Source: a virus | Virus record (IMG/VR): IMGVR_UViG_3300034374_004244 | Location: 1 to 37,710 of that record | DNA length: 37,710 nucleotides | Direction: 5' to 3' (one strand) | In this document: positions 8,838 through 28,995 of the stretch, piece after piece | Layout: every line of letters begins with the position of its first letter | Position numbering within the stretch: the stretch's first letter is position 1 | Translations under genes and position numbers: made by a program | The notes under the pieces: generated by a model | The model's input: the letters and a program-made list of their open reading frames with translations, nothing else | What the model was told of the DNA's origin: nothing | Databases searched by the model: none

Positions 8838-9196
8838 TATGATATCTCCACTGTTGTTTTACCAACTATTGAAATAAGTTGTCTTTTTCTATTTTGTTCT
8901 GCACCATTATCAGGCTGCATTCCAGAAGAATCAAAAGCAAATTCTCCAGGTAAGGATAAATCAGTTGTAGTAAATCTAGATCCTCCAGAGTTAAAAGTAA
9001 AATCTTGAGGTCTTGCATTTCTTAATGCAATCGCATCTGCCTTAACTGTTTTTCTTCTTATTTGTGGATGTTTAGGCTCAAATTCAGATATATGTACTAA
9101 TGCACCTGTCCATTCTCTAACCATTTCTTGATATGGAAAAGCCATTCCAGAACGATCAGATATTGCATGTGATTTTTTACCTGTTGCGTATGCCAT
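8837..9196 (-). CDS. putative connector-region protein, 119 aa
   Basis: Lies between two adaptor-like genes with single-base overlaps on both sides. It begins MAYATGKKSHAISDRSGMAF, has the block GALVHISEFEPKHPQIRRK (about 31-49) and ends in a short beta strand. The same arrangement is familiar from marine phages with P22-like connectors. Probably a small virion protein; no enzymatic motif. Confidence 0.6.
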   Translation of the reverse strand: MAYATGKKSHAISDRSGMAFPYQEMVREWTGALVHISEFEPKHPQIRRKTVKADAIALRNARPQDFTFNSGGSRFTTTDLSLPGEFAFDSSGMQPDNGAEQNRKRQLISIVGKTTVEIS

Positions 9197-9885
9197 TATA
9201 CTCCATCTCCAAAGTAAGTTTGTGGTGAAATATATAAAGAAGTTCTAGAACCATCTTCATCTAAAGCTCTTTTCATTTCATCTTCATAAGCTAATTTTAA
9301 CATTTGTGTTCTATCTGCAGCTTTTAAAAACGATAGATAATAAGCTAGACCTGCTACCATACAAGGTAAAAATCTATAAGGTGCATCAGGAGTATTTGTA
9401 TATCCTCCAGCATCTTCAATTCTAGCAATATAATAATATTTTAAATAAGTGTAAGTAGATGCATCAGGTGTTTGATACAAATATATTTGTGGATTAATTT
9501 GTCTATCTACATAATACTGTGACGGTTGTCCTGTGGCACCTTTATTTGGTAAAGCTGCATAGTTAGATCTATCTGTTTTAGTTAAAGATACATCCGTTAT
9601 CGACGGCCCCGTGCCAGCTCCTGTAGATATGTAAGCTTCTAATACATCACTACAATCACTTGGAGTTGCGTATTGTTCTGTTCCTGATGTTAATACTTGT
9701 TCATAATTTTTTACCTTCCATAAATGTAATCCTCTGTTACCCCATTCAGATAACAATAAATTTAAATTTCTTCTAGCTCTTTTTAAATCATAACCTGAGT
9801 CTGTAGATAAACCACATCTTTCATATGCTTCATCTATAATTTCATCTATATTTAAATTAAATGATGTAGTTCCTGAGCTAGCCAT
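9196..9885 (-). CDS. P22 gp4-like head completion / tail accessory protein, 229 aa
   Basis: The N-terminal helical hairpin DEIIDEAYERCG, then LKRARRNLNLLLSEWGNRGLH (residues about 38-58), is characteristic of the gp4-like connector family that attaches to the portal ring. It is followed by a beta insert and the helical stretch PYRFLPCMVAGLAYYLSFL (about 166-184). Its position near the other adaptor supports the call. One-base overlap (TAATG) with the gene upstream. Confidence 0.65.
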   Translation of the reverse strand: MASSGTTSFNLNIDEIIDEAYERCGLSTDSGYDLKRARRNLNLLLSEWGNRGLHLWKVKNYEQVLTSGTEQYATPSDCSDVLEAYISTGAGTGPSITDVSLTKTDRSNYAALPNKGATGQPSQYYVDRQINPQIYLYQTPDASTYTYLKYYYIARIEDAGGYTNTPDAPYRFLPCMVAGLAYYLSFLKAADRTQMLKLAYEDEMKRALDEDGSRTSLYISPQTYFGDGV

Positions 9886-10109
9886 TATAACATTCCTTTA
9901 TAATAATCTTTCATGTTTATAAAACCACCTGTAGAGTTTTTAGAAATACCTCCACCAGCTGTGCTTTTAGTTTGTTGTTGCATTTGTCTTAATCCTTCAC
10001 TCACAGCAGATTCTAAAGACATATCAATTCTTAAATCGCTAACTAATGAATTAAACTTCTTTTTATTAGCTGGACTTGCATTCTTGTAATATTTAGCTGC
10101 GTAATCCAT
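9885..10109 (-). CDS. small protein with C-terminal DYYKGML peptide, 74 aa
   Basis: Lys/Ser/Gln-rich helical protein ending GGFINMKDYYKGML. The neighbouring 75-aa product ends SYEDYYKDIL, so the two unrelated bodies share a C-terminal DYYKxxL tag. Overlaps both neighbours by one base. No known domain; probably a virion-associated or assembly protein by location. Confidence 0.65.
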   Translation of the reverse strand: MDYAAKYYKNASPANKKKFNSLVSDLRIDMSLESAVSEGLRQMQQQTKSTAGGGISKNSTGGFINMKDYYKGML

Positions 10110-10336
10110 TATAAAATATCTTTATAATAATCCTCGTAAGATTTATTAGAAACCATTTGTTCTCCAACTTCTGATTTAATATGAGAACCAATGTATTCAC
10201 CCATTTTAGGAGATCCTGAACTTCTTTTTTTCATTGGAACACAGTTAGGTACTTTTTTACCATTCTTCATCTTAGTTCCAACCATTTCATAACCTTCCCA
10301 ACAAGGACCTTTTCCTTTTTTCATTTTTTTTGCCAT
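10109..10336 (-). CDS. small basic protein with C-terminal DYYKDIL peptide, 75 aa
   Basis: Very basic N-terminus (MAKKMKKGKG) followed by CWEGYEMVGTKMKNGKKVP with two Cys (13 and 32), a pattern seen in small marine phage proteins and possibly metal- or nucleic-acid-binding. The C-terminus DYYKDIL matches the next gene's end. The ATG is preceded by GGAGGAATA and overlaps the stop of the 59-aa gene by one base. Confidence 0.7.
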   Translation of the reverse strand: MAKKMKKGKGPCWEGYEMVGTKMKNGKKVPNCVPMKKRSSGSPKMGEYIGSHIKSEVGEQMVSNKSYEDYYKDIL

Positions 10337-14102: not shown

Positions 14103-14423
14103 TTAACATTTCCACCTTCTCCTTGCAGCGCAAATTCTTTTATCTGGAGTTTTGCTACAATTTACATTATGCATTCTCATTTGTCCTGCAGATCTTGCAC
14201 AATAAGATTTTCTTCTTTTTGCTGCTTTACTTCCTTTTTTAACTTTACCTGTTACTGCTGTTTTAAGTTTAGATCCAGGATTCATTCTTCGATAAGCTGC
14301 CACACCTGCACGAGTCATTCCCGCTCCACTTTTAGTAGAACGATAATTTTTTTTATTTCGCGCAGGCATACCACCTTTTGCAAAGCTGTCTATTTCTAAA
14401 CCTAGATCAGCATAGTAATCCAT
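14103..14423 (-). CDS. DUF6321-like arginine/lysine-rich protein, 106 aa
   Basis: Has the blocks KKNYRSTKSGAGMTRAGVAA, YRRMNPGSKLKTAVTGKVK and ARSAGQMRMHNVNCSKTP, with a C-terminal RRRWKC. I recognise this as the DUF6321-type family common in marine phages. It is strongly basic with conserved Cys in the second half, so nucleic-acid binding, possibly with zinc, is plausible. Function is not established. Confidence 0.8.
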   Translation of the reverse strand: MDYYADLGLEIDSFAKGGMPARNKKNYRSTKSGAGMTRAGVAAYRRMNPGSKLKTAVTGKVKKGSKAAKRRKSYCARSAGQMRMHNVNCSKTPDKRICAARRRWKC

Positions 14424-20034: not shown

Positions 20035-20411
20035 TACTTTCTTTTTATTAAATCAGTTGCTTTAAGTCCGTAAACGCTCGCTATGACGCCCACAAAAATT
20101 GTTTGATACCAAAATGGTAACTGTGAAAAGTATTCAAAAAACAATTGCATTTTTTCCATAGCTGCTGGGTCATCTGAAAATACTGCCCACGCTAAAAGTA
20201 CAATGGGTGCTGAAAGTAATAATAAAATAAATTCGTCTTTCCAGTCCGATTGCCTTGCTTCTAATAATTTGCCTTGATACTCGGCTTCACCATTTGCCAT
20301 TTTTTCTGCATGACGCATTTGTGCATCCGCCATTAACATTTTAGTTTTTTGACGATTTTTAAATATATGAGAGCCAGCTTGAACGGCTAATTTAATAGCA
20401 CCGAACCACAT
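20034..20411 (-). CDS. holin-like membrane protein, 125 aa
   Basis: The N-terminal helix is followed by a charged stretch (AEKMANGEAEYQGKLLEARQ) and two membrane segments, FILLLLSAPIVLLAWAVFS (61-79) and FWYQTIFVGVIASVYGL (about 100-116), ending KRK. This matches, from memory, the 3TM holin family of gene transfer agents and marine phages (GTA_holin_3TM). One-base overlaps on both sides. It lies far from the M15 endolysin gene, so the lysis genes are split. Confidence 0.55.
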   Translation of the reverse strand: MWFGAIKLAVQAGSHIFKNRQKTKMLMADAQMRHAEKMANGEAEYQGKLLEARQSDWKDEFILLLLSAPIVLLAWAVFSDDPAAMEKMQLFFEYFSQLPFWYQTIFVGVIASVYGLKATDLIKRK

Positions 20412-21037
20412 TAGAATACTCCCTTAAATCCTGTTCCTCTTATTGCTGCTTTGGTTCCTCTAACTCTTATAGACTTACCATTACTTGCTTGCACTACTGA
20501 ACAAGGTGGATTAGATCCATCTGGACATAATCCTCCTCCACTGTCTCCACCTAATTGAGTAAAGGTAGGTCTAGCAGGTGAATAATCATTTAAATTTTTT
20601 CGATTGTTTATTCCTAATGAATCTAATTTATTAGACACAGTTCCTGTAAGAGGTTCAATAATATTTTTGGCTACCCTCATTGCACCTAAAGGTATATCTA
20701 AAGCTTTACTAACTCCAAATGTTGCAACATTTTTTAAAACTCCAGCTCCTTTAATCGCTGTATCTAAAGGACTTGGTCTATCAATTAATTTTTCTGCAGC
20801 TCTAACGTTACCTGCTCTTACTTGAGCTCTTTGATTTGCATTTTGTTGTGGACTTCCTTTATCTTGAGCAGGGCCTACACTTCCGTAACCTCTACTAGCT
20901 CTTTCCTGTGCTCTTTCAGGAGCACCCATATCAGCCCCACCACCATATCTCATTTTGATTGGTGGTACGTTGGGGTTTGGGCCTCTTAGTGGTGGAGGCC
21001 CTGATCTTTTGCCAGAAATTTTATGCTTTTTTGACAT
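20411..21037 (-). CDS. head-module protein with C-terminal RGTxFKG peptide, 208 aa
   Basis: Mostly low-complexity: a Pro/Gly/Arg-rich N-terminus (PPPLRGPNPNVPP), a Gln/Ala/Arg segment, then a hydrophobic helix region (GVLKNVATFGVSKALDIPLG, about 99-118). A CPDGSNPPC loop follows and the C-terminus is RGTKAAIRGTGFKGVF. The last 12 residues match the ends of two other proteins encoded between 26.6 and 27.5 kb. Lies between portal-proximal and holin-like genes; possibly an ejected internal virion protein. Confidence 0.65.
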   Translation of the reverse strand: MSKKHKISGKRSGPPPLRGPNPNVPPIKMRYGGGADMGAPERAQERASRGYGSVGPAQDKGSPQQNANQRAQVRAGNVRAAEKLIDRPSPLDTAIKGAGVLKNVATFGVSKALDIPLGAMRVAKNIIEPLTGTVSNKLDSLGINNRKNLNDYSPARPTFTQLGGDSGGGLCPDGSNPPCSVVQASNGKSIRVRGTKAAIRGTGFKGVF

Positions 21038-21488
21038 TTTTATTTTTCTTTAATGCTGCAAAGTCCGCACCTGTAATTTTATTTGGTGGTGGAGCTGCCG
21101 CTGCAATCTTTTGTTGTTTAGGTGATAACTTAGTTTCGCCACCTGTAGATTTTTTATCTGTTTTAAATTTATTTTTAGCTGTTTCGTATCCAATACCAAT
21201 TCCAGAACCAACTTTAATTGTTAGATCAGCTATTCTTCCAATTGGAGATCTTTTAAAAGCAGTTTTAAATATGTTTTTAGTTGCTGATTTTAATTTTTTT
21301 CTTCTATTTGTAAATGTATCTTCTTTTGCAGGTTTATTTGAAGATAGCGTCATTCTTCTATTAGTAAATTCATCAGTTGAAGATAATTTTAATCTTCTAT
21401 TTATAAATTCAGTACTTGGACTGTTTTTATTTACTGTTGTGTATAAATTTTTATAAAGGTTATCTAGCCCCAGTTTTTTTCCCGACAT
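21021..21488 (-). CDS. basic protein with triple FxNRRxxL repeat, 155 aa
   Basis: The ATG at 21488 (MSGKKLGLDN) is chosen because GGAG lies seven bases before it; the frame is open nine codons further. Three successive units, EFINRRLKLSS, EFTNRRMTLSS and TFTNRRKKLKS, lie in residues about 26-70. A glycine-rich helix (IKVGSGIGIGYETAKNKF) and a Pro/Lys-rich tail follow. Overlaps the portal gene end by 29 bases. Probably a virion or ejection-associated protein; no family known. Confidence 0.6.
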   Translation of the reverse strand: MSGKKLGLDNLYKNLYTTVNKNSPSTEFINRRLKLSSTDEFTNRRMTLSSNKPAKEDTFTNRRKKLKSATKNIFKTAFKRSPIGRIADLTIKVGSGIGIGYETAKNKFKTDKKSTGGETKLSPKQQKIAAAAPPPNKITGADFAALKKNKNVKKA

Positions 21489-23799
21489 TTGTTTTCTCCA
21501 TTTTTTCTCGAGCAACTTCTAATCTCTTATCAGATTGCTCATCTTGTGTTTCTAATTTTAATTTATCAAAATCTAATTTCTCATCAAATTGATCTTGATT
21601 TTGTTCTAGCTTCATACTACCCTCTTGAGCACGTCTTTGTAAATCCATAGCTCTTAAATCTAATTCTCTTTGTTTCAACATGATTACAGGGTCGCTTTTC
21701 TGTGCATCCATCATAGTTTCGTTCTGTGCTAGCTCTGCAGTTATCTGTGCAATCCTTTTTGCTACTTCAGAATTGTACATAGATTGAAATGCTTGTGGAT
21801 TTTGTTGTGCCATAGCCATTAAATTAGGATCTTGTTGCATCATAGCCATAACTTCAGCAGATGCTTTCATAGAAACGTGTTGAGAGATGTGTCCTTGTAG
21901 ATTTGCATACACCATAGGGTTAATTTGCACCATTCTAGTTCTCATAAACGCAGAATGGGCTGCAATATGTGCGTCATGGTCTTGATCTGGATATGCAGTC
22001 ATCGGTAACATCTGTAAAGCTTCCATATTTTCAATTGCAGGGTCTTTTGGAAACGGTTTTTGCTCTGGTTTTAGGATTTGAGGTATTTCTTTAGTGCCTA
22101 AAGCCTCATAAACACGTCTATAAGCTTCATGTAGGTTGTGAAGTTGTGGATTTGACTGCGCAATTTGTAATTGTGTTTGTGCTAATGTCACTCTTTGCGA
22201 CATTGAGAAGATATTTGGGTCTGCAACCGGTAAAATATCTACTCGGTCGTCAAAATCTACCACTTTAATGACTCTCTCAGCCCCGTAGACAGCGTATGGA
22301 TACTCAGGTGGTAGGTATTCAGCTATAATTTGACCTAAAAGCTTAAATTCTTGCTTCATTGCATAGTAACAACGCTTGTGAATAGCGCTCATTACCCTAG
22401 AACCTCTCTCTAAAAGAGCAATTGTAGTGCCAACAGCTGCCGCTTGGTTACCATCACCGACTTGTTGGTCAGCAATTGATGCAAATCTTCTTCCTGCATC
22501 TACACAAAAACCTAAAAGATTGAATAAAGTTGTGCTTGGTTCTTTAAAAGGTAGTAATTGAAACTGATCTCTGATGTTTCCACCTGGTGCATCAACGTCT
22601 CTGAACTCTCCAGGTTGAATTGGTTGGTCATCATCTCTAATTCTCATGCCTCTAGACTTAAATCCAGCAGGTAAGTTTGATAATGTACCCGCATCAAGTA
22701 GCTGTCTTAGAGCAGTAGTTGCTGTTCGAGACAGGCCACCGATCATGTGAATTAAACCAAAACCATAAAATCCTAAACCAGGTAAGAATTTGTAATGTGA
22801 AAAATATTCTTTTCTAATAAATTTGTTATCACCTTCTCTGTAATTTCTATAAATAGATAAAATTTGTCTTGTACCTTCTTCAATAGTTACGACATAAGGT
22901 ATTTTAATATTAATTTTGTCTTCGTCATTCTCTGCAATGTAGTCAGATAAGTCTAAATCCACATGCATTTCTAAAACATTGTATATATAATCTTTTGATT
23001 CAACAGGTTTAATACCTTCTAGTTCATTGTACTTATCTTGAATTTTGTTTTCTTTTTTTTGAGGTTTCATTAGATCTACTTGTCTATAAAAACCTGCTGC
23101 CATTTTCTTTAATAAATCATTTTCAGATTGTTTTAATACATGTGTAATTCTTGGTGCATCTTTTAAGTCGGTTGCATAATACGGTACGACTAAATCTTCT
23201 GCAGGTATAAATTTAGATACTGCTCTTTCTAATACTGAATCGTAATATATTTTTTTAAATGCAGAACCTGCAAGTGGTAAATAAAATAACAACTGATCAA
23301 ACTCTGGAGTATACTCTTCCATCTTCTCCATGATTTGAAAGTTCATGAAATCTTTTACTCTTTGTGCTTGAGCTTCAGTTTGTTCGTTTTGTAATCCAAC
23401 AATTTTAGTTTTTACTGGACCATCACTGGGTAATAATTCTTTGTAAGCTTGTGCTTGAAATTGTGTAACGGCTTCCGATAACAAAGGATGAGTAACATTA
23501 CTTGCACCTTTGAAAGGTTGTGTAGTCGATTTATATTTAAACCCTAAAAGGTCTAAACCATTTCTGTACGTATCTTCCCAATCTTTTCTTGATTCTCTAT
23601 CGCTATCATATTCAGAAATTAAATCTGAAGCTAATTGTGATAAAGCTTTGTCATCAATATCTTCTGCAATGTTTGCATAGAAGTCCTGTTCAGATTCTTC
23701 TGTTACTTCTTCTTCACCTTCTTCAGGTGGCAAAGTTACAACAGCTTCTTCTTCAACATCAACTTCTTCGTTGATTGGATTATCGGATTCAATAGCCAT
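21460..23799 (-). CDS. portal protein, 779 aa
   Basis: A large portal of the P22-like type that forms the dodecameric ring for DNA entry and exit. It has an acidic N-terminal tail (about 1-45) and DWEDTYRNGLDLLGFKYKS (73-91). The wing/stem region contains KGASNVTHPLLSEAVTQFQA (97-116), and GLIHMIGGLSRTATTALRQL follows near 347-366. It ends in a long Gln/Met/Lys-rich helical barrel with many Asp, Glu and Lys. Placed between terminase and capsid genes as expected. One base is shared with the 138-aa gene. Confidence 0.8.
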   Translation of the reverse strand: MAIESDNPINEEVDVEEEAVVTLPPEEGEEEVTEESEQDFYANIAEDIDDKALSQLASDLISEYDSDRESRKDWEDTYRNGLDLLGFKYKSTTQPFKGASNVTHPLLSEAVTQFQAQAYKELLPSDGPVKTKIVGLQNEQTEAQAQRVKDFMNFQIMEKMEEYTPEFDQLLFYLPLAGSAFKKIYYDSVLERAVSKFIPAEDLVVPYYATDLKDAPRITHVLKQSENDLLKKMAAGFYRQVDLMKPQKKENKIQDKYNELEGIKPVESKDYIYNVLEMHVDLDLSDYIAENDEDKINIKIPYVVTIEEGTRQILSIYRNYREGDNKFIRKEYFSHYKFLPGLGFYGFGLIHMIGGLSRTATTALRQLLDAGTLSNLPAGFKSRGMRIRDDDQPIQPGEFRDVDAPGGNIRDQFQLLPFKEPSTTLFNLLGFCVDAGRRFASIADQQVGDGNQAAAVGTTIALLERGSRVMSAIHKRCYYAMKQEFKLLGQIIAEYLPPEYPYAVYGAERVIKVVDFDDRVDILPVADPNIFSMSQRVTLAQTQLQIAQSNPQLHNLHEAYRRVYEALGTKEIPQILKPEQKPFPKDPAIENMEALQMLPMTAYPDQDHDAHIAAHSAFMRTRMVQINPMVYANLQGHISQHVSMKASAEVMAMMQQDPNLMAMAQQNPQAFQSMYNSEVAKRIAQITAELAQNETMMDAQKSDPVIMLKQRELDLRAMDLQRRAQEGSMKLEQNQDQFDEKLDFDKLKLETQDEQSDKRLEVAREKMEKTNVGKKTGAR

Positions 23800-24215
23800 T
23801 ATGTAATTTTAGTTTTTTTATTCTTTCCCATTTTGCATTTAGCCATGACGTATTTTCCATTTTTAGCATACATCATTCCGCCAGCTTTAGCGCCACCCAT
23901 GCCAAATTCAAAAGCATCATCAGTATCACCAAAATATCTTGTTTTTTGTCCGCCTGTTGTATTAGCAACAGGACTAGTTAAGAAATTTTTGATTTTATCC
24001 ATCATACCAATCTTGCCTTGTTTAACGCCTTTGCCACCCTTCATAATTGGGTCGTCGTATCTTTTTCTGTATATGTTGCTTAATGCACTTCCTCTGCCTT
24101 TATCAATATTGATTCCGGTATCTTTACCACCAAGCATTTTAGACGCTCCGTAAGCTGCAGCTCCAATGGCCGCTGCCTTACCAGCTTTCTTCAACATTTT
24201 TTTTAACTTAGCCAT
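23799..24215 (-). CDS. basic, Gly/Ala-rich virion-type protein, 138 aa
   Basis: The N-terminus KKMLKKAGKAAAIGAAAYGA is a cationic amphipathic helix like membrane-active peptides. It is followed by a Gly/Lys-rich body and a C-terminal KNGKYVMAKCKMGKNKK segment. Between the portal and the 792-aa protein, a place where internal virion or ejection proteins are often encoded. No enzymatic motif. Confidence 0.6.
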   Translation of the reverse strand: MAKLKKMLKKAGKAAAIGAAAYGASKMLGGKDTGINIDKGRGSALSNIYRKRYDDPIMKGGKGVKQGKIGMMDKIKNFLTSPVANTTGGQKTRYFGDTDDAFEFGMGGAKAGGMMYAKNGKYVMAKCKMGKNKKTKIT

Positions 24216-24268
24216 AATTGTCTCCTATAGGTTTATTACAGCAGTGTAAAGCATTTTATGCCAAAAAT

Positions 24269-26647
24269 CTATAATAGCGAAGTAAAAATGTTCCTCTGAT
24301 CTACAAATCCACCTTCGTACATATAAGCTTTCATTGGTAACAAGAACTTTTTAAGTGTTGCACTATCTGCAATCAGAGTAGGCACCATTTCATAGACATC
24401 AGGATTATTAGGCCCCAATTCTTTAATAATTAATTGACCAGAATTAGCTTCTGATTTTCTCATCTTCAATAAGTTTTCCGCTTCCTCTAAAGTATCTGCT
24501 GCAGCTAAATGATCTTCATAAATATACTCATCTCCAATTTTTTTATTGTAGTGCGCTTTACCTGCCTCTACCGATCTTCTATAGTTAGTAGAATCTTTTG
24601 ATGAAATTACTTGAATAACTTTAAATGGTTTTTCTGGATTACTTTTAGGCATTGGGAACATTTCAAATTTAGCTCCATACTGTTTAGCTATTCTTTGTAA
24701 AGGTTCTACCATCAATGCAAACTTTTTAGTTTTTTCAAACTTACCATCCTTATTTTTAATTAAAGCCCTGCCATCCATTAAACCATAATTAATCTCATCT
24801 CCAGTTTTACTAATGCTAGGCATCTTAACACCTTTGTTCATTGAACTTGGTACAATAGAGATTGCATTAATATCTCTTTCTGCCATGGTACGTAATAAAT
24901 TTTTAACTGCATAATCTGGCCAAGCTTTCGCTAAAGGTCCTGCAGTAGTTTCATCAACCATACCTTGATTCATTAGTTTACCCATGCCTGATTTTTCTAA
25001 TTGACCAATCTCATAATTTACTCTTGCAAGTTCTTGTTGTTGCTTTCTAGTCAATCCTGCAACTCCTCTACCAAGTTCTTGGTAAGGTGCAATCTTATCC
25101 ATTAATTCTTGTCTTTGTTTTTTTAAAATATTTAATGGTGCATCTATGTTAAATGTATTTATTTTGTTTCTAAAATAACTATCTCTTGTACTTGCTTCAG
25201 CTGCAAACTGTGGTGAGTGTAAATCTGATTGTACTTCTGAAACTCTAATATGTCTTTTACCTGGACCTAATTTAGGATTCGGTAAATCATCGTATCGAAT
25301 AAATCCAATCTCATTATCAATGTAATGAGGTGAGTCTAGTTCTTTAAATTGTCCGCTTGTTGTATTTGGAACTCTTTTTGAATAATACACAACATCTTCA
25401 GTAAAGTTTTCTCCTGCATCTAGCTTGTAATTATAACCCGAACCTGTTTTATATTCTGGATAAAAAGTATCTTCTTTAGATCTTCTTAATTTAAATCCTT
25501 CAGGTTTAGGAATTCGTTTACTGTAGTTATTATAGTTCCCTGTAAGTCTATTAAATTTAACTAATAGATCTGCAAACGGTTTAGGGTCATTTGCTCCTGC
25601 ACCTAATTGTTGTAGATTTTTTTGTACTTTTTGAATCACAGTTGTATTAAGAGGATTTCTTTGTCCGAACATAATTGTAGCAATTGAATCTAAAGTATCA
25701 TTAATGTAATTGCCTTCAGGAATTCCATCCATTCCAGAAGCTCTTACTGCATCATTAACCTCTTTTTTAAAAGTTACCATTTCTCCATCAGGATTGCCTC
25801 TAACACCTAAACGAATTGTTTTTAAATCATTTATTGGAGAGTTTCTAACCATCGTTAGTAAAGTATCTCTATCGATAGGTATATTGTTATCTTTAGCTGC
25901 TTTTAAAAAACCACCAGTTGGTTCCATAACTTCTTCATACTTTTGTCTTCCTGGTTTTTGTCCTGGAACCTCTCTTACCGGTTTAGGTTTTAATGTTTTC
26001 TTTAATGTAACGATATTTAATTCTTCTAACTCATCAGGTGCTACTCTACGAGAGACCCCTGTTAACGGACCAGTATTAACTCTTAACTGAGGATCCATTC
26101 CTTTAGACAACCAACTAATCCATTCATCTGCAGGTGCTTTATCAAATGGTGCTTCCATGATTCTATCGTAAGTCGATGAACCTACAATTGGATTTAAATT
26201 CATTCCTGTTCTTGTAGAAGAACTATAACCTTTACCTTGTGTGAAAGGTATATTAATGACTTCACCAAATTTTGATTTAGTTAATGCAGGCACTGGAGTT
26301 GTAGTAATTAACTCTTTGGATTGTCCGGTGGCCGTTGGTATGTTACCTATCTCATTTGGTTTAGTTGATGAGACAGGAATGTTTTCTACTCTTGATTTAG
26401 AAGGTAATGAAAACTTTGTGTATACTTCTTTTTCTTTTGGTCTTTTTAAAAATTGTCTAACTCCAGGTATTCGTCTTGCTAGAATGCCTGTTCCTACTAT
26501 ACTAGCACCGAGTGCTGCTAACCCGCCAATCGACGACGGCTCCGTGTCATCAACAATGATAGACGAATCCTGTTTGACCAGTGGCGTTGAGCCTCGTTTA
26601 ATTTGACTAACAAAAGATTCAAACGGATCATTGAATGGGTCGGCCAT
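24269..26647 (-). CDS. large putative ejection/polyvalent protein with EVQSDLH domain, 792 aa
   Basis: The N-terminus has one hydrophobic helix (IGGLAALGASIVGTGIL, 40-56), then basic low-complexity sequence. The central-to-late part contains HYIDNEIGFIRYDDL (441-455), then RHIRVSEVQSDLHS (465-478), and after a helical insert AWPDYAVKNLLRTMAE (575-590) and the beta strand INAISIVPSS. This order (an E-x-QSD-x-H box, then a W-PxxAxK-x-L helix and a short strand) matches an uncharacterised domain I know from large phage polyvalent proteins. Length and place next to the portal suggest an internal virion protein ejected with the DNA, perhaps with an enzymatic job. Confidence 0.6.
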   Translation of the reverse strand: MADPFNDPFESFVSQIKRGSTPLVKQDSSIIVDDTEPSSIGGLAALGASIVGTGILARRIPGVRQFLKRPKEKEVYTKFSLPSKSRVENIPVSSTKPNEIGNIPTATGQSKELITTTPVPALTKSKFGEVINIPFTQGKGYSSSTRTGMNLNPIVGSSTYDRIMEAPFDKAPADEWISWLSKGMDPQLRVNTGPLTGVSRRVAPDELEELNIVTLKKTLKPKPVREVPGQKPGRQKYEEVMEPTGGFLKAAKDNNIPIDRDTLLTMVRNSPINDLKTIRLGVRGNPDGEMVTFKKEVNDAVRASGMDGIPEGNYINDTLDSIATIMFGQRNPLNTTVIQKVQKNLQQLGAGANDPKPFADLLVKFNRLTGNYNNYSKRIPKPEGFKLRRSKEDTFYPEYKTGSGYNYKLDAGENFTEDVVYYSKRVPNTTSGQFKELDSPHYIDNEIGFIRYDDLPNPKLGPGKRHIRVSEVQSDLHSPQFAAEASTRDSYFRNKINTFNIDAPLNILKKQRQELMDKIAPYQELGRGVAGLTRKQQQELARVNYEIGQLEKSGMGKLMNQGMVDETTAGPLAKAWPDYAVKNLLRTMAERDINAISIVPSSMNKGVKMPSISKTGDEINYGLMDGRALIKNKDGKFEKTKKFALMVEPLQRIAKQYGAKFEMFPMPKSNPEKPFKVIQVISSKDSTNYRRSVEAGKAHYNKKIGDEYIYEDHLAAADTLEEAENLLKMRKSEANSGQLIIKELGPNNPDVYEMVPTLIADSATLKKFLLPMKAYMYEGGFVDQRNIFTSLL

Positions 26648-26976
26648 TATTTTACTCCATTAAACTTTGTACCTTGGATGGCCACTCCGCCACCTCTTGA
26701 GAATTTCTTTTTCCACTTCACTCCAAAAAAATCTTTACCTACTTCAAATTGAGTTTGACCTTTTGTTTCGTCGGGTATGAGATTAGCTTTTTCATCAAGT
26801 GTAGTTTTTGATTTTGTAATTTTAAATCTTAAATCACCATCAGCAGGATTTTCAATTAAATTTTTAATATCTTTTCCTGTAATAGTTTTACCACCATAGT
26901 TATTTTTATTATCAGAATTGAAACCTATATTATAGGTATACATATCATCTATGGTAGATTTTTTATTTTTAGGCAT
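26647..26976 (-). CDS. small protein with C-terminal QGTKFNG peptide, 109 aa
   Basis: Starts MPKNKKSTIDDMYTYNIGF and ends GGGVAIQGTKFNGVK, which aligns with the ends of the 208-aa and 185-aa proteins. The body has a short beta/helix pattern (GKTITGKDIKNLIENPADGD). One base shared with each neighbour. Body fold unknown; the shared end suggests a common binding partner. Confidence 0.65.
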   Translation of the reverse strand: MPKNKKSTIDDMYTYNIGFNSDNKNNYGGKTITGKDIKNLIENPADGDLRFKITKSKTTLDEKANLIPDETKGQTQFEVGKDFFGVKWKKKFSRGGGVAIQGTKFNGVK

Positions 26977-27533
26977 TAGAAAATACCTTTAAACTTAGTA
27001 CCTCTCACTGCTGCACCAGCACCTTTAGAAGATTCACCCATGCATGATGCACAACCACAAGCATCGGCGTCACCACCCATACTAAAAGTTTTTGCACCTT
27101 CAGGTCTCATATAATCTTCTGGAAATTCTTTAGCGGGGTCAAATACTTTACCATCAACAATAAACGGGTCTCCAACATATGAAATATTTTTATTACCCAT
27201 TGCCATATCTCTAGCTTTAGGCATTTTTTTCTTTTCAGCTTTTGAAGATCCGCTTTTTCTATTTATAACTTTATATTCTTTACCTTTAATATTAAAAATA
27301 AGTGAAGGATCTGATGGACCTTGAGAAGGTGTTCTCTGTTTAACTGTTCCTGTGATTTTTCCAGGCATCTTCTTTTTCTTTCTAGAAGGTAAAGGTCTTG
27401 GCTCGCCCGTATCAATTTTATCTGCTGTAGTAATTTTATATTTAGGATAAAATTTATCATCAATTGGATTTGTCTCAGCATTGTTTACTGCTTCCATCAT
27501 TTTTTTAGCTTGTTCTGCTGTCAGTTTACCCAT
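26976..27533 (-). CDS. basic protein with C-terminal RGTKFKGIF peptide, 185 aa
   Basis: The ATG at 27533 (MGKLTAEQAKKMMEAVNN) is preferred because GGGAG lies ten bases before it and the extra upstream codons lack a ribosome site. It overlaps the terminase stop by eight bases. Lys/Pro-rich middle (PSRKKKKMPGKITGTV), a Cys cluster CGCASC near the end, then GAGAAVRGTKFKGIF. The Cys cluster could bind a metal. Located between TerL and the 792-aa protein. Confidence 0.65.
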   Translation of the reverse strand: MGKLTAEQAKKMMEAVNNAETNPIDDKFYPKYKITTADKIDTGEPRPLPSRKKKKMPGKITGTVKQRTPSQGPSDPSLIFNIKGKEYKVINRKSGSSKAEKKKMPKARDMAMGNKNISYVGDPFIVDGKVFDPAKEFPEDYMRPEGAKTFSMGGDADACGCASCMGESSKGAGAAVRGTKFKGIF

Positions 27534-28995
27534 AATATTTATACTCCCTTTCGATCTGCATTCCTTCAGGTTCATCCAAATATGTAGAAACGAAATTTCC
27601 TTGACGGTATCTTAACACAGCTTGTGTGGTACTATCAACATAGTCATCGTGCTGAGCATATGGAAATGCAGCGCATTCTTCAATAACTTCTAAAGCAAAT
27701 CTAGCATCTTCAGGATAATATACGTTTGCAGATTCAAATACAGGGGCACAAGCATTTACTCTGGAATGCTTATCTTTACCTCGTGTTGGAATAAAATCCA
27801 TTACAGGAATCCCTGCACGTCTAAGTTCTTGAATTAAAGATTGTCCAGAAGCTTTAGCCTCAACGATTACTGATTCAGGTTCCCAATATTTATAAGCTTC
27901 AAAAGCTACTGCTTTAAGTTCTGGAAAATCCCAACGACCTTTTTCTGCATCTAGAAGTATCAAACAATTCTCTCCAGGCGTCGGTTCAAATATTCCCCAA
28001 GTTGTAATAGCAGAATAGTCAGCAGATTCTTTTTTAGAAAATGCAGTATCATAACTTTGAATAACATGTTTTAATGCAGGCACTTTACCTTTCCAAGGTT
28101 GCCACCATTCTCGTTTTAAGATTGCACCTTCTTCGGCAACTGGGTCCTGCATGTATTGTGCGTTCCAGTTTCTTGGAACGATAGATGCTTTAACTGCTTC
28201 TAATTCTTCTAATGACCAATACTCAGGCCAAACAGGATTACCTGATTCTAGTATTGCAGGAAATTCTATTAACTTCCATTTGTCAGCCTTAGCTTCAGAT
28301 TGGGACTTCAATAGTCTACCAGTCAAATCATCTTGTGCCCATCTTGTCATTACCAAAAGAATGGAGCCACCTGGTTGTAAACGTTGTCGTGGTCCTGAGT
28401 TGTACCACTCATATGCTCTTTCCATGGCAGAGTCTGATAATGAGTCTTGCTCAGTATGTGGATCGTCAATAATAAGTAAGTCCGCCCCTCGTCCTGTGAT
28501 AGAACCGCCAACACCCGCTGCAAAATATTCCCCACCATGATTGGTCTCCCAACGTCCTTTTGCCTTACTATCTTCACGGAGTTTAACATCTCCGAAAATA
28601 CTTTTGTACTCCTTGCTATCAATTAAATTTCTTACCTTGGAACCGAATCTACCAGCAAGTTCTGCGTTGTGTGAAACTTGCATAATTTTTTTCTTAGGAA
28701 ACTTCCCTATGTACCAAGCAGGAAACAAATAAGATGCGAATTCAGATTTAGTATGTCTAGGAGGCATATTAACAATGAGCCTCCCTTTTGAGCCTCTTGC
28801 AATCTTAGTTAGCTCATGTGCAATGTGTTGATGGTGCCCCCACTTTTTTGGGTCCCTTTCTTTTCTACAAATAAAATCTGGCCAAACGGTTTGAACAAAA
28901 TATAAAAAATTGTCCTGACACATTTTTATGTGTTCAATATATAATTTTTCTACACGATCTCTTAATTGATCTGTTGTTAATGTATCTAGACTCAT
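27526..28995 (-). CDS. terL: terminase large subunit
   Basis: ATP-driven DNA packaging motor and nuclease. Walker A-like NMPPRHTKSE (76-85), Walker B LLIIDDPH (173-180) and the coupling motif VMTRWA (215-220) lie in the ATPase half. The RNase H-like nuclease half has D316 (QSYDTAF), E379 (VIVEAKASG) and the D450/D451/D454 cluster (HDDYVDS). The length of 489 residues is normal for this family. Preceded by a 185-base non-coding stretch with a G-rich tract and hairpins, so it is likely regulated apart from the small early genes. Confidence 0.95.
   Translation of the reverse strand: MSLDTLTTDQLRDRVEKLYIEHIKMCQDNFLYFVQTVWPDFICRKERDPKKWGHHQHIAHELTKIARGSKGRLIVNMPPRHTKSEFASYLFPAWYIGKFPKKKIMQVSHNAELAGRFGSKVRNLIDSKEYKSIFGDVKLREDSKAKGRWETNHGGEYFAAGVGGSITGRGADLLIIDDPHTEQDSLSDSAMERAYEWYNSGPRQRLQPGGSILLVMTRWAQDDLTGRLLKSQSEAKADKWKLIEFPAILESGNPVWPEYWSLEELEAVKASIVPRNWNAQYMQDPVAEEGAILKREWWQPWKGKVPALKHVIQSYDTAFSKKESADYSAITTWGIFEPTPGENCLILLDAEKGRWDFPELKAVAFEAYKYWEPESVIVEAKASGQSLIQELRRAGIPVMDFIPTRGKDKHSRVNACAPVFESANVYYPEDARFALEVIEECAAFPYAQHDDYVDSTTQAVLRYRQGNFVSTYLDEPEGMQIEREYKYYG

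Follow-up and report, generated by a model that had tools for sequence, protein, structure and literature searches.

Genes and tags in the window

The window (the whole stretch of DNA analysed, 37,710 nucleotides) contains three ORFs, and no more, whose products end in G-x-x-F-x-G-[VI]-x-COOH. All coordinates given here are on the minus strand. The first product is a 208-aa protein (20411..21037), which ends in AAIRGTGFKGVF and has a body with GPPP-RGPNPNVPP and CPDGxxPPC modules; the second is a strand-rich protein of 109 aa (26647..26976), which ends in VAIQGTKFNGVK; and the third is a 185-aa protein (26976..27533), which ends in AAVRGTKFKGIF. This last gene can alternatively be read as 199 aa starting from 27575, but the start at 27533 is preferred because the homologue in contig L278 aligns from the methionine of the 185-aa form. 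The shared ends, here called tag A, are RGTKAAIRGTGFKGVF, RGGGVAIQGTKFNGVK and KGAGAAVRGTKFKGIF respectively. Their 16 codons lie at 20414..20461 (26.6 bits with a tag HMM, 0 residues from the C-terminus), 26650..26697 (24.1 bits) and 26979..27026 (25.4 bits).

The pattern [RKQ]Gxx[FYW]xGx(1,2) forms the end of 3 of the 327 window ORFs of at least 25 aa, which are the same three products, and occurs at no internal position in any of the 327. Shuffling of residues over 500 rounds gave a mean of 0.016 motif ends and a maximum of 1, compared to the three observed. The three bodies show no homology to each other, the best pairwise blastp match having an E value of 1.9, and the HMM families obtained by iteration from the three have no members in common. 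The earlier note had described a common C-terminal peptide on three unrelated head-module proteins. The common peptide and the lack of full-length homology are both confirmed. The term head-module fits the position of the genes beside portal and terminase but is slightly narrow, as tagged genes in relatives also adjoin the head–tail adaptor gene.

Searches of PHROGs and Pfam gave no secure match for the 208-aa, 109-aa or 185-aa proteins. The 109-aa protein did match phrog_2332, a ‘hyaluronidase’ (E 0.001), and DUF5871 (E 0.11), but both matches were too insecure to be used. Its AlphaFold model is poor (pLDDT 52.6), and predicts strands, with residues 93–109, the tag end, disordered. A tblastn search of INPHARED with the 208-aa and 185-aa proteins, the consensus tag and two tagged proteins gave no matches, a probable reason being the small number of isolated relatives. 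A bacterial outer-membrane β-signal was considered for the terminal F and dropped, being unexpected in small basic proteins; the spacing of that signal also appears not to fit GxxFxGxF.

Three genes serve as anchors for the positions of tagged genes: the portal protein (21460..23799; PHROG 1216, E 8e-54), the terminase large subunit, terL (27526..28995; PHROG 38, E 2e-119), and a putative head–tail adaptor (9196..9885), assigned from its position and from a C-terminus homologous to the annotated adaptor of DSL-LC04. A conserved 792-aa protein (24269..26647), whose tail GGFVDQRNIFTSLL resembles class B, described below, is encoded between the portal gene and the tagged genes. Many of its relatives are 750–790 aa long; the motif E-[VI]-Q-S-D is invariant, and the tail reads GGFVDxxNIFxSLL. 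Its AF2 model is of moderate quality (pLDDT 70.2). It has no Pfam match and no PDB fold match at E ≤ 0.001, and its matches in BFVD are uncharacterised phage proteins only. Sequence searches of the PDB with capsid, portal and 792-aa profiles gave no usable match.

Form and distribution of tag A

The consensus of tag A is RG[GTAQ]G[AI]A[IVL][RK]GTKFKG[VI]F. IMG/VR was searched with a degenerate DNA pattern for RGTxFxGxF followed by a stop, which matched at least 120 contigs. Among the matches listed, the pattern forms an in-frame ORF end in 119 of 120 contigs, these counts being samples from contigs that are often fragments, with some near-duplicate loci and mechanical gene calls. The one exception, L058, was rejected as a chance pattern match. 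All 119 tag-A contigs among those listed encode homologues of window genes, and come from HTVC023P-type pelagiphages and their relatives. The window portal shares 64% identity with the portal of Pelagibacter phage HTVC023P, which places the window in the HTVC023P-type lineage. Two tag patterns searched against 84,980 cellular genomes (GTDB) gave no matches; of the 120 viral loci listed, the second of these patterns recovers 86. No mention of the tag peptide strings was found in the literature searched.

Loci that were not retrieved by the RGTxFxGxF pattern carry a looser tag, with a near-invariant core of G-8, F-5, G-3 and a hydrophobic residue at -2. The tag HMM, applied to the window together with 13 longer phage contigs, gave 17 strong matches, all of them 0–1 residue from the C-terminus. 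A single variant with a weaker score (G006, 9.9 bits) is likewise C-terminal. Tags within one genome are no more alike than tags from different genomes (0.53 vs 0.59, from only 19 pairs), and co-evolution with a single receptor is therefore not visible. Nor did this small comparison support concerted evolution among the tags of a genome.

Further tag classes

The same gene slots in relatives encode proteins with other common C-termini, designated class B and class C and identified using regular expressions of our own making, which are approximate. Class B is GGEVxIxKGxDYIKDLL, and an in-frame B end is present in 109 of 112 loci among the IMG/VR matches listed; class-B contigs carry homologues of window genes. 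Class C is GCGKVMxNRRKVTKxY, found as a C end in 98 loci or contigs, 93 of which have homologues of the window core genes. Classes A and C are basic while class B is mixed, which makes a single receptor for all of the classes unlikely. The tags are preceded by a flexible Gly-Gly or basic linker, on unrelated bodies.

Classes B and C-like are also present elsewhere in the window, beyond the three tag-A ends. The adaptor slot contains a 74-aa protein (9885..10109) with the class-B tail TGGFINMKDYYKGML (MKDYYKGML), and a 75-aa protein (10109..10336) with a KGPCWEGY..VPNCVP module and the class-B tail YEDYYKDIL. Upstream of the portal gene is a 138-aa protein (23799..24215) with the class-C-like tail KMGKNKKTKIT. 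Judged by sequence, HTVC023P-type phages have at least three tag classes (A, B and C), which are interchangeable.

Several other ends were seen. In L138, L141, L155 and L172, the gene before that of a conserved 125-aa protein has a fourth C-terminal module, GYHRMPDGSIMKNSAHKG, in place of tag A; this module sits on a GPPPxRGPNPQ body. Candidate end-tags in L188, L190 and L203 are QVKKVPF[KR]GVF, RGxRAEIKGLRPAKLT, KPKLTxxGWK and RSKPTKLF. Contigs L463, L474, L395 and L430 have class-C tails of the form KACGxVMxDRRKVTKYY on proteins of 44–99 aa; these contigs are without window core genes and perhaps belong to another phage lineage. In the window, a DUF6321 protein (14103–14423) has a very conserved basic C-terminus ending in RRRWKC. 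Ends of this type on DUF6321 proteins recur throughout the lineage, the gene lying downstream of that for the capsid.

Exchange of tags between bodies

The clearest view of an exchange comes from the 185-aa protein of the window and its homologue L278:6614-7171. They are 66% identical over 159 aa as far as the Gly-Gly hinge, and then diverge completely, the window protein ending in GAGAAVRGTKFKGIF (tag A) and the L278 protein in INVGKGGDYIKDLID (tag B). Families related to the 109-aa protein have tag A in L331, L289 and L274 and tag B in L253 and L322, the L331 and L253 members being 71% identical; the window 109-aa protein itself shares only a short similar stretch with that of L253 (E 2e-5). 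Homologues of the 208-aa body end in another tag, NVDKDLL or NVDKSLL. The small GPPP protein before the 125-aa gene has tag A in some genomes and the end MPDGSIMKNSAHK in others. The N-terminal module of the 75-aa protein recurs with tag A in L090:5955-6173. One further body was seen with two classes: in L358 it ends in tag B, and in L436 in tag C. Clustering of bodies gave 11 clusters with more than one tag class at 40% identity, and 7 at 50% identity and 70% coverage.

The bodies themselves are highly diverse. Tag-A proteins comprise dozens of body families, and there are 131–179 body clusters over all tag classes. The bodies turn over fast, and include peptides of 49–60 aa. An alignment of 124 representative tagged proteins revealed almost no common features except GG and the tag. 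Pfam searches of the same 124 identified DUF6496 (7), EF-hand (3), dockerin (2) and RepL-like (1) domains and no enzyme domains, while PHROGs matched the tagged proteins only to unknown modules.

Positions of tagged genes

The slots rich in tags are those between terL and the 792-aa gene, terL and portal, portal and the 125-aa gene, and lysozyme and adaptor; the slot counts include loci retrieved by the tag patterns. The loci found by portal homology only are free of this bias, and in these almost all A and B tags lie at a distance of 1–3 genes from terL, portal or adaptor, with very few further away. Proteins ending in RGT.F.G, which the earlier note proposed to look for across phages, do cluster near portal, terminase and adaptor genes. 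One tagged slot directly abuts the 125-aa protein, which is conserved and has a hydrophobic stretch. Among roughly 1,500 genes for core proteins (capsid, scaffold, portal, terminase, GroES-like, adaptor and others), none had an A or B end.

Cultured relatives

In the cultured phage HTVC023P, gp32 (QGZ17661.1; IRGVGAAIRGHKFIGVK) and gp51 (QGZ17680.1; RGGGAAVRGMGFKGVF) end in tag A, gp53 (QGZ17682.1; SLDYYKDIM) has a class-B tail, and gp30 (QGZ17659.1; KPTKMY) a C-like one. Its large late proteins, which are encoded at the far end of the genome and are candidate ejection proteins, are untagged. No tag A was found in the stretches of HTVC027P that were read; a transcriptome exists for this phage. 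No virion proteomics for the HTVC023P-type group was found in the literature searched.

Selection and gene junctions

Synonymous sites in the tag codons are saturated when tags on unrelated bodies are compared (pS 0.57 for A and 0.73 for B), while the tag residues are conserved, indicating that selection acts on the peptide. The pN/pS ratio is 0.55 for tag A and 0.23 for tag B, compared to 1.0–1.2 in the region immediately before the tag, where sites are matched by position and are not homologous.

The next start lies within 12 nucleotides in 169 of the 188 tag-A genes (90%), and 127 of these have a 1-nucleotide overlap. The overlaps involve structural genes. A strong excess of the 1-nucleotide stop–start overlap TAATG was noted at tag-A junctions in many loci. 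In about half of the tag-A junctions, GGAG is embedded seven bases ahead of the following start, and a strict Shine–Dalgarno core is present in the last 20 nucleotides of 49% of tag-A genes, compared to 10–19% of other genes with a near start. In tag-B genes, no strict Shine–Dalgarno sequence was found (0 of 126).

Possible functions of the tags

These close junctions and the enrichment in Shine–Dalgarno cores would be expected if the motif were a nucleotide signal, that is, a recombination or translation-coupling cassette in which the codons for FKGV[F]-stop (AAAGGAGTNTTYTAATG) embed the Shine–Dalgarno sequence of the next gene. We consider this very improbable, given that half of the A tags and all of the B tags have no strict Shine–Dalgarno sequence, that the tag is kept in 19 genes with no close following start, and that the most conserved residues (F-5, G-8 and I-10) lie partly outside it, in addition to the saturation of synonymous sites. 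As a full explanation, the Shine–Dalgarno sequence is largely refuted by the A tags that lack it, by all of the B tags and by the more distant residues. It is extremely unlikely that the tagged proteins are ordinary diverged paralogues in which likeness is left only at the C-terminus. They are all small, basic and glycine-rich, with some modules in common (phrog_27331, DUF6496), but the three bodies in the window are dissimilar, the number of body clusters is large, and the same bodies are found with entirely different tags.

The tags could instead bind a host factor, as a ClpX-type C-terminal degron or a PDZ-type ligand that times removal or localisation of the protein. Most tags do have a hydrophobic residue at the free C-terminus, class A being basic and then hydrophobic, and C-terminal ClpX signals of such style are known from MuA and ssrA. 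Restriction to one lineage and to slots among packaging genes would not be expected of a host-directed signal, however, and nor would three dissimilar classes on the same bodies, making a host factor quite improbable. Alternatively, the tags might fix decoration proteins or minor structural parts to the connector or the particle exterior, or attach them to the membrane beside a TM protein, with no delivery of cargo. This matches the location of tagged genes around portal and adaptor, the slot that abuts the 125-aa protein with its hydrophobic stretch, and the presence in some bodies of Ca-binding EF-hand or dockerin loops; but the fast turnover of bodies and the 49–60-aa peptides are unlike a fixed structural part, and we regard this as unlikely.

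What is observed, within a single virion lineage, is a detachable, strictly C-terminal tag, conserved at the level of the peptide, on late-module proteins that are themselves variable. Detachability, selection on the peptide and restriction to a lineage and to particular slots are together what would be expected of a docking or encapsidation signal. We give about an even chance to the suggestion, made from sequence data, that the tags bring accessory proteins to the portal vertex or to the head during its assembly. Each tag would be a short docking ligand, its partner being a conserved component of the virion or of its assembly in this lineage (portal, adaptor, scaffold, capsid or packaging complex), and many different accessory proteins would be recruited in this way, packaged there, and probably delivered to the host along with the genome. 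The earlier note had also proposed a docking or encapsidation signal, and this stands in its general form, supported by detachability, selection at the protein level, a single lineage and slots flanking terminase, portal and adaptor; its version for ejection proteins does not fare as well, since the large late candidates in HTVC023P are untagged. A more elaborate proposal, possible but doubtful, is that the tags form a C-terminal address code, in which each of several classes is recognised at a separate site of the machinery that assembles the virion, and effectors are loaded by gaining a tag and re-routed by swapping it.

The phages concerned belong to a very abundant ocean and freshwater family (PMC12753301), in which most genes of the virion module are without annotation. 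If docking by these tags is correct, the tag would mark which of the unannotated proteins enter or attach to the particle. It would also offer a route to phage accessory or effector proteins from sequence only, and a natural handle for loading cargo. The question can be tested in the cultured pair HTVC023P and Pelagibacter HTCC1062, as this one phage has A, B and C-like ends.

Comparison with known systems

Polyvalent proteins are large, multi-enzyme proteins that are injected from the capsid and have no common end tag (Iyer et al., 2017, PMC5512222). Both these and the tagged proteins are variable and module-shuffled, are encoded among the late virion genes of portal–terminase phages, and are proposed to be packaged. 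The tagged proteins differ in being small and mostly domain-less, with no enzyme among the 124 representatives, and in having a common C-terminal tag. The ejection proteins of P22 and T7 are products of virion-module genes in short-tailed phages and leave together with the DNA. Unlike the proteins discussed here, they are fixed and large, and have no interchangeable terminal peptide.

In T4, the capsid targeting sequence is found on the internal proteins IPI–III and Alt, where it is N-terminal and is removed by the prohead protease; the internal proteins are encoded by the phage at variable loci, and are routed into the prohead for injection. The tags are similar in being short conserved terminal peptides on unrelated phage proteins. 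They are different in being strictly C-terminal rather than N-terminal, and in forming at least three interchangeable classes, with no sequence relation to the T4 signal. Encapsulin cargo-loading peptides are short C-terminal peptides that follow a flexible linker on unrelated cargo and are read by a shell with the HK97 fold. The tags likewise are C-terminal peptides placed after a GG or basic linker on unrelated proteins, although they belong to a phage and not to a bacterial compartment, and their sequence appears to be different. The closest working analogy would be the targeting of exchangeable internal proteins to the T4 capsid, mirrored to the C-terminus, combined with encapsulin cargo peptides, membership being claimed in neither system.
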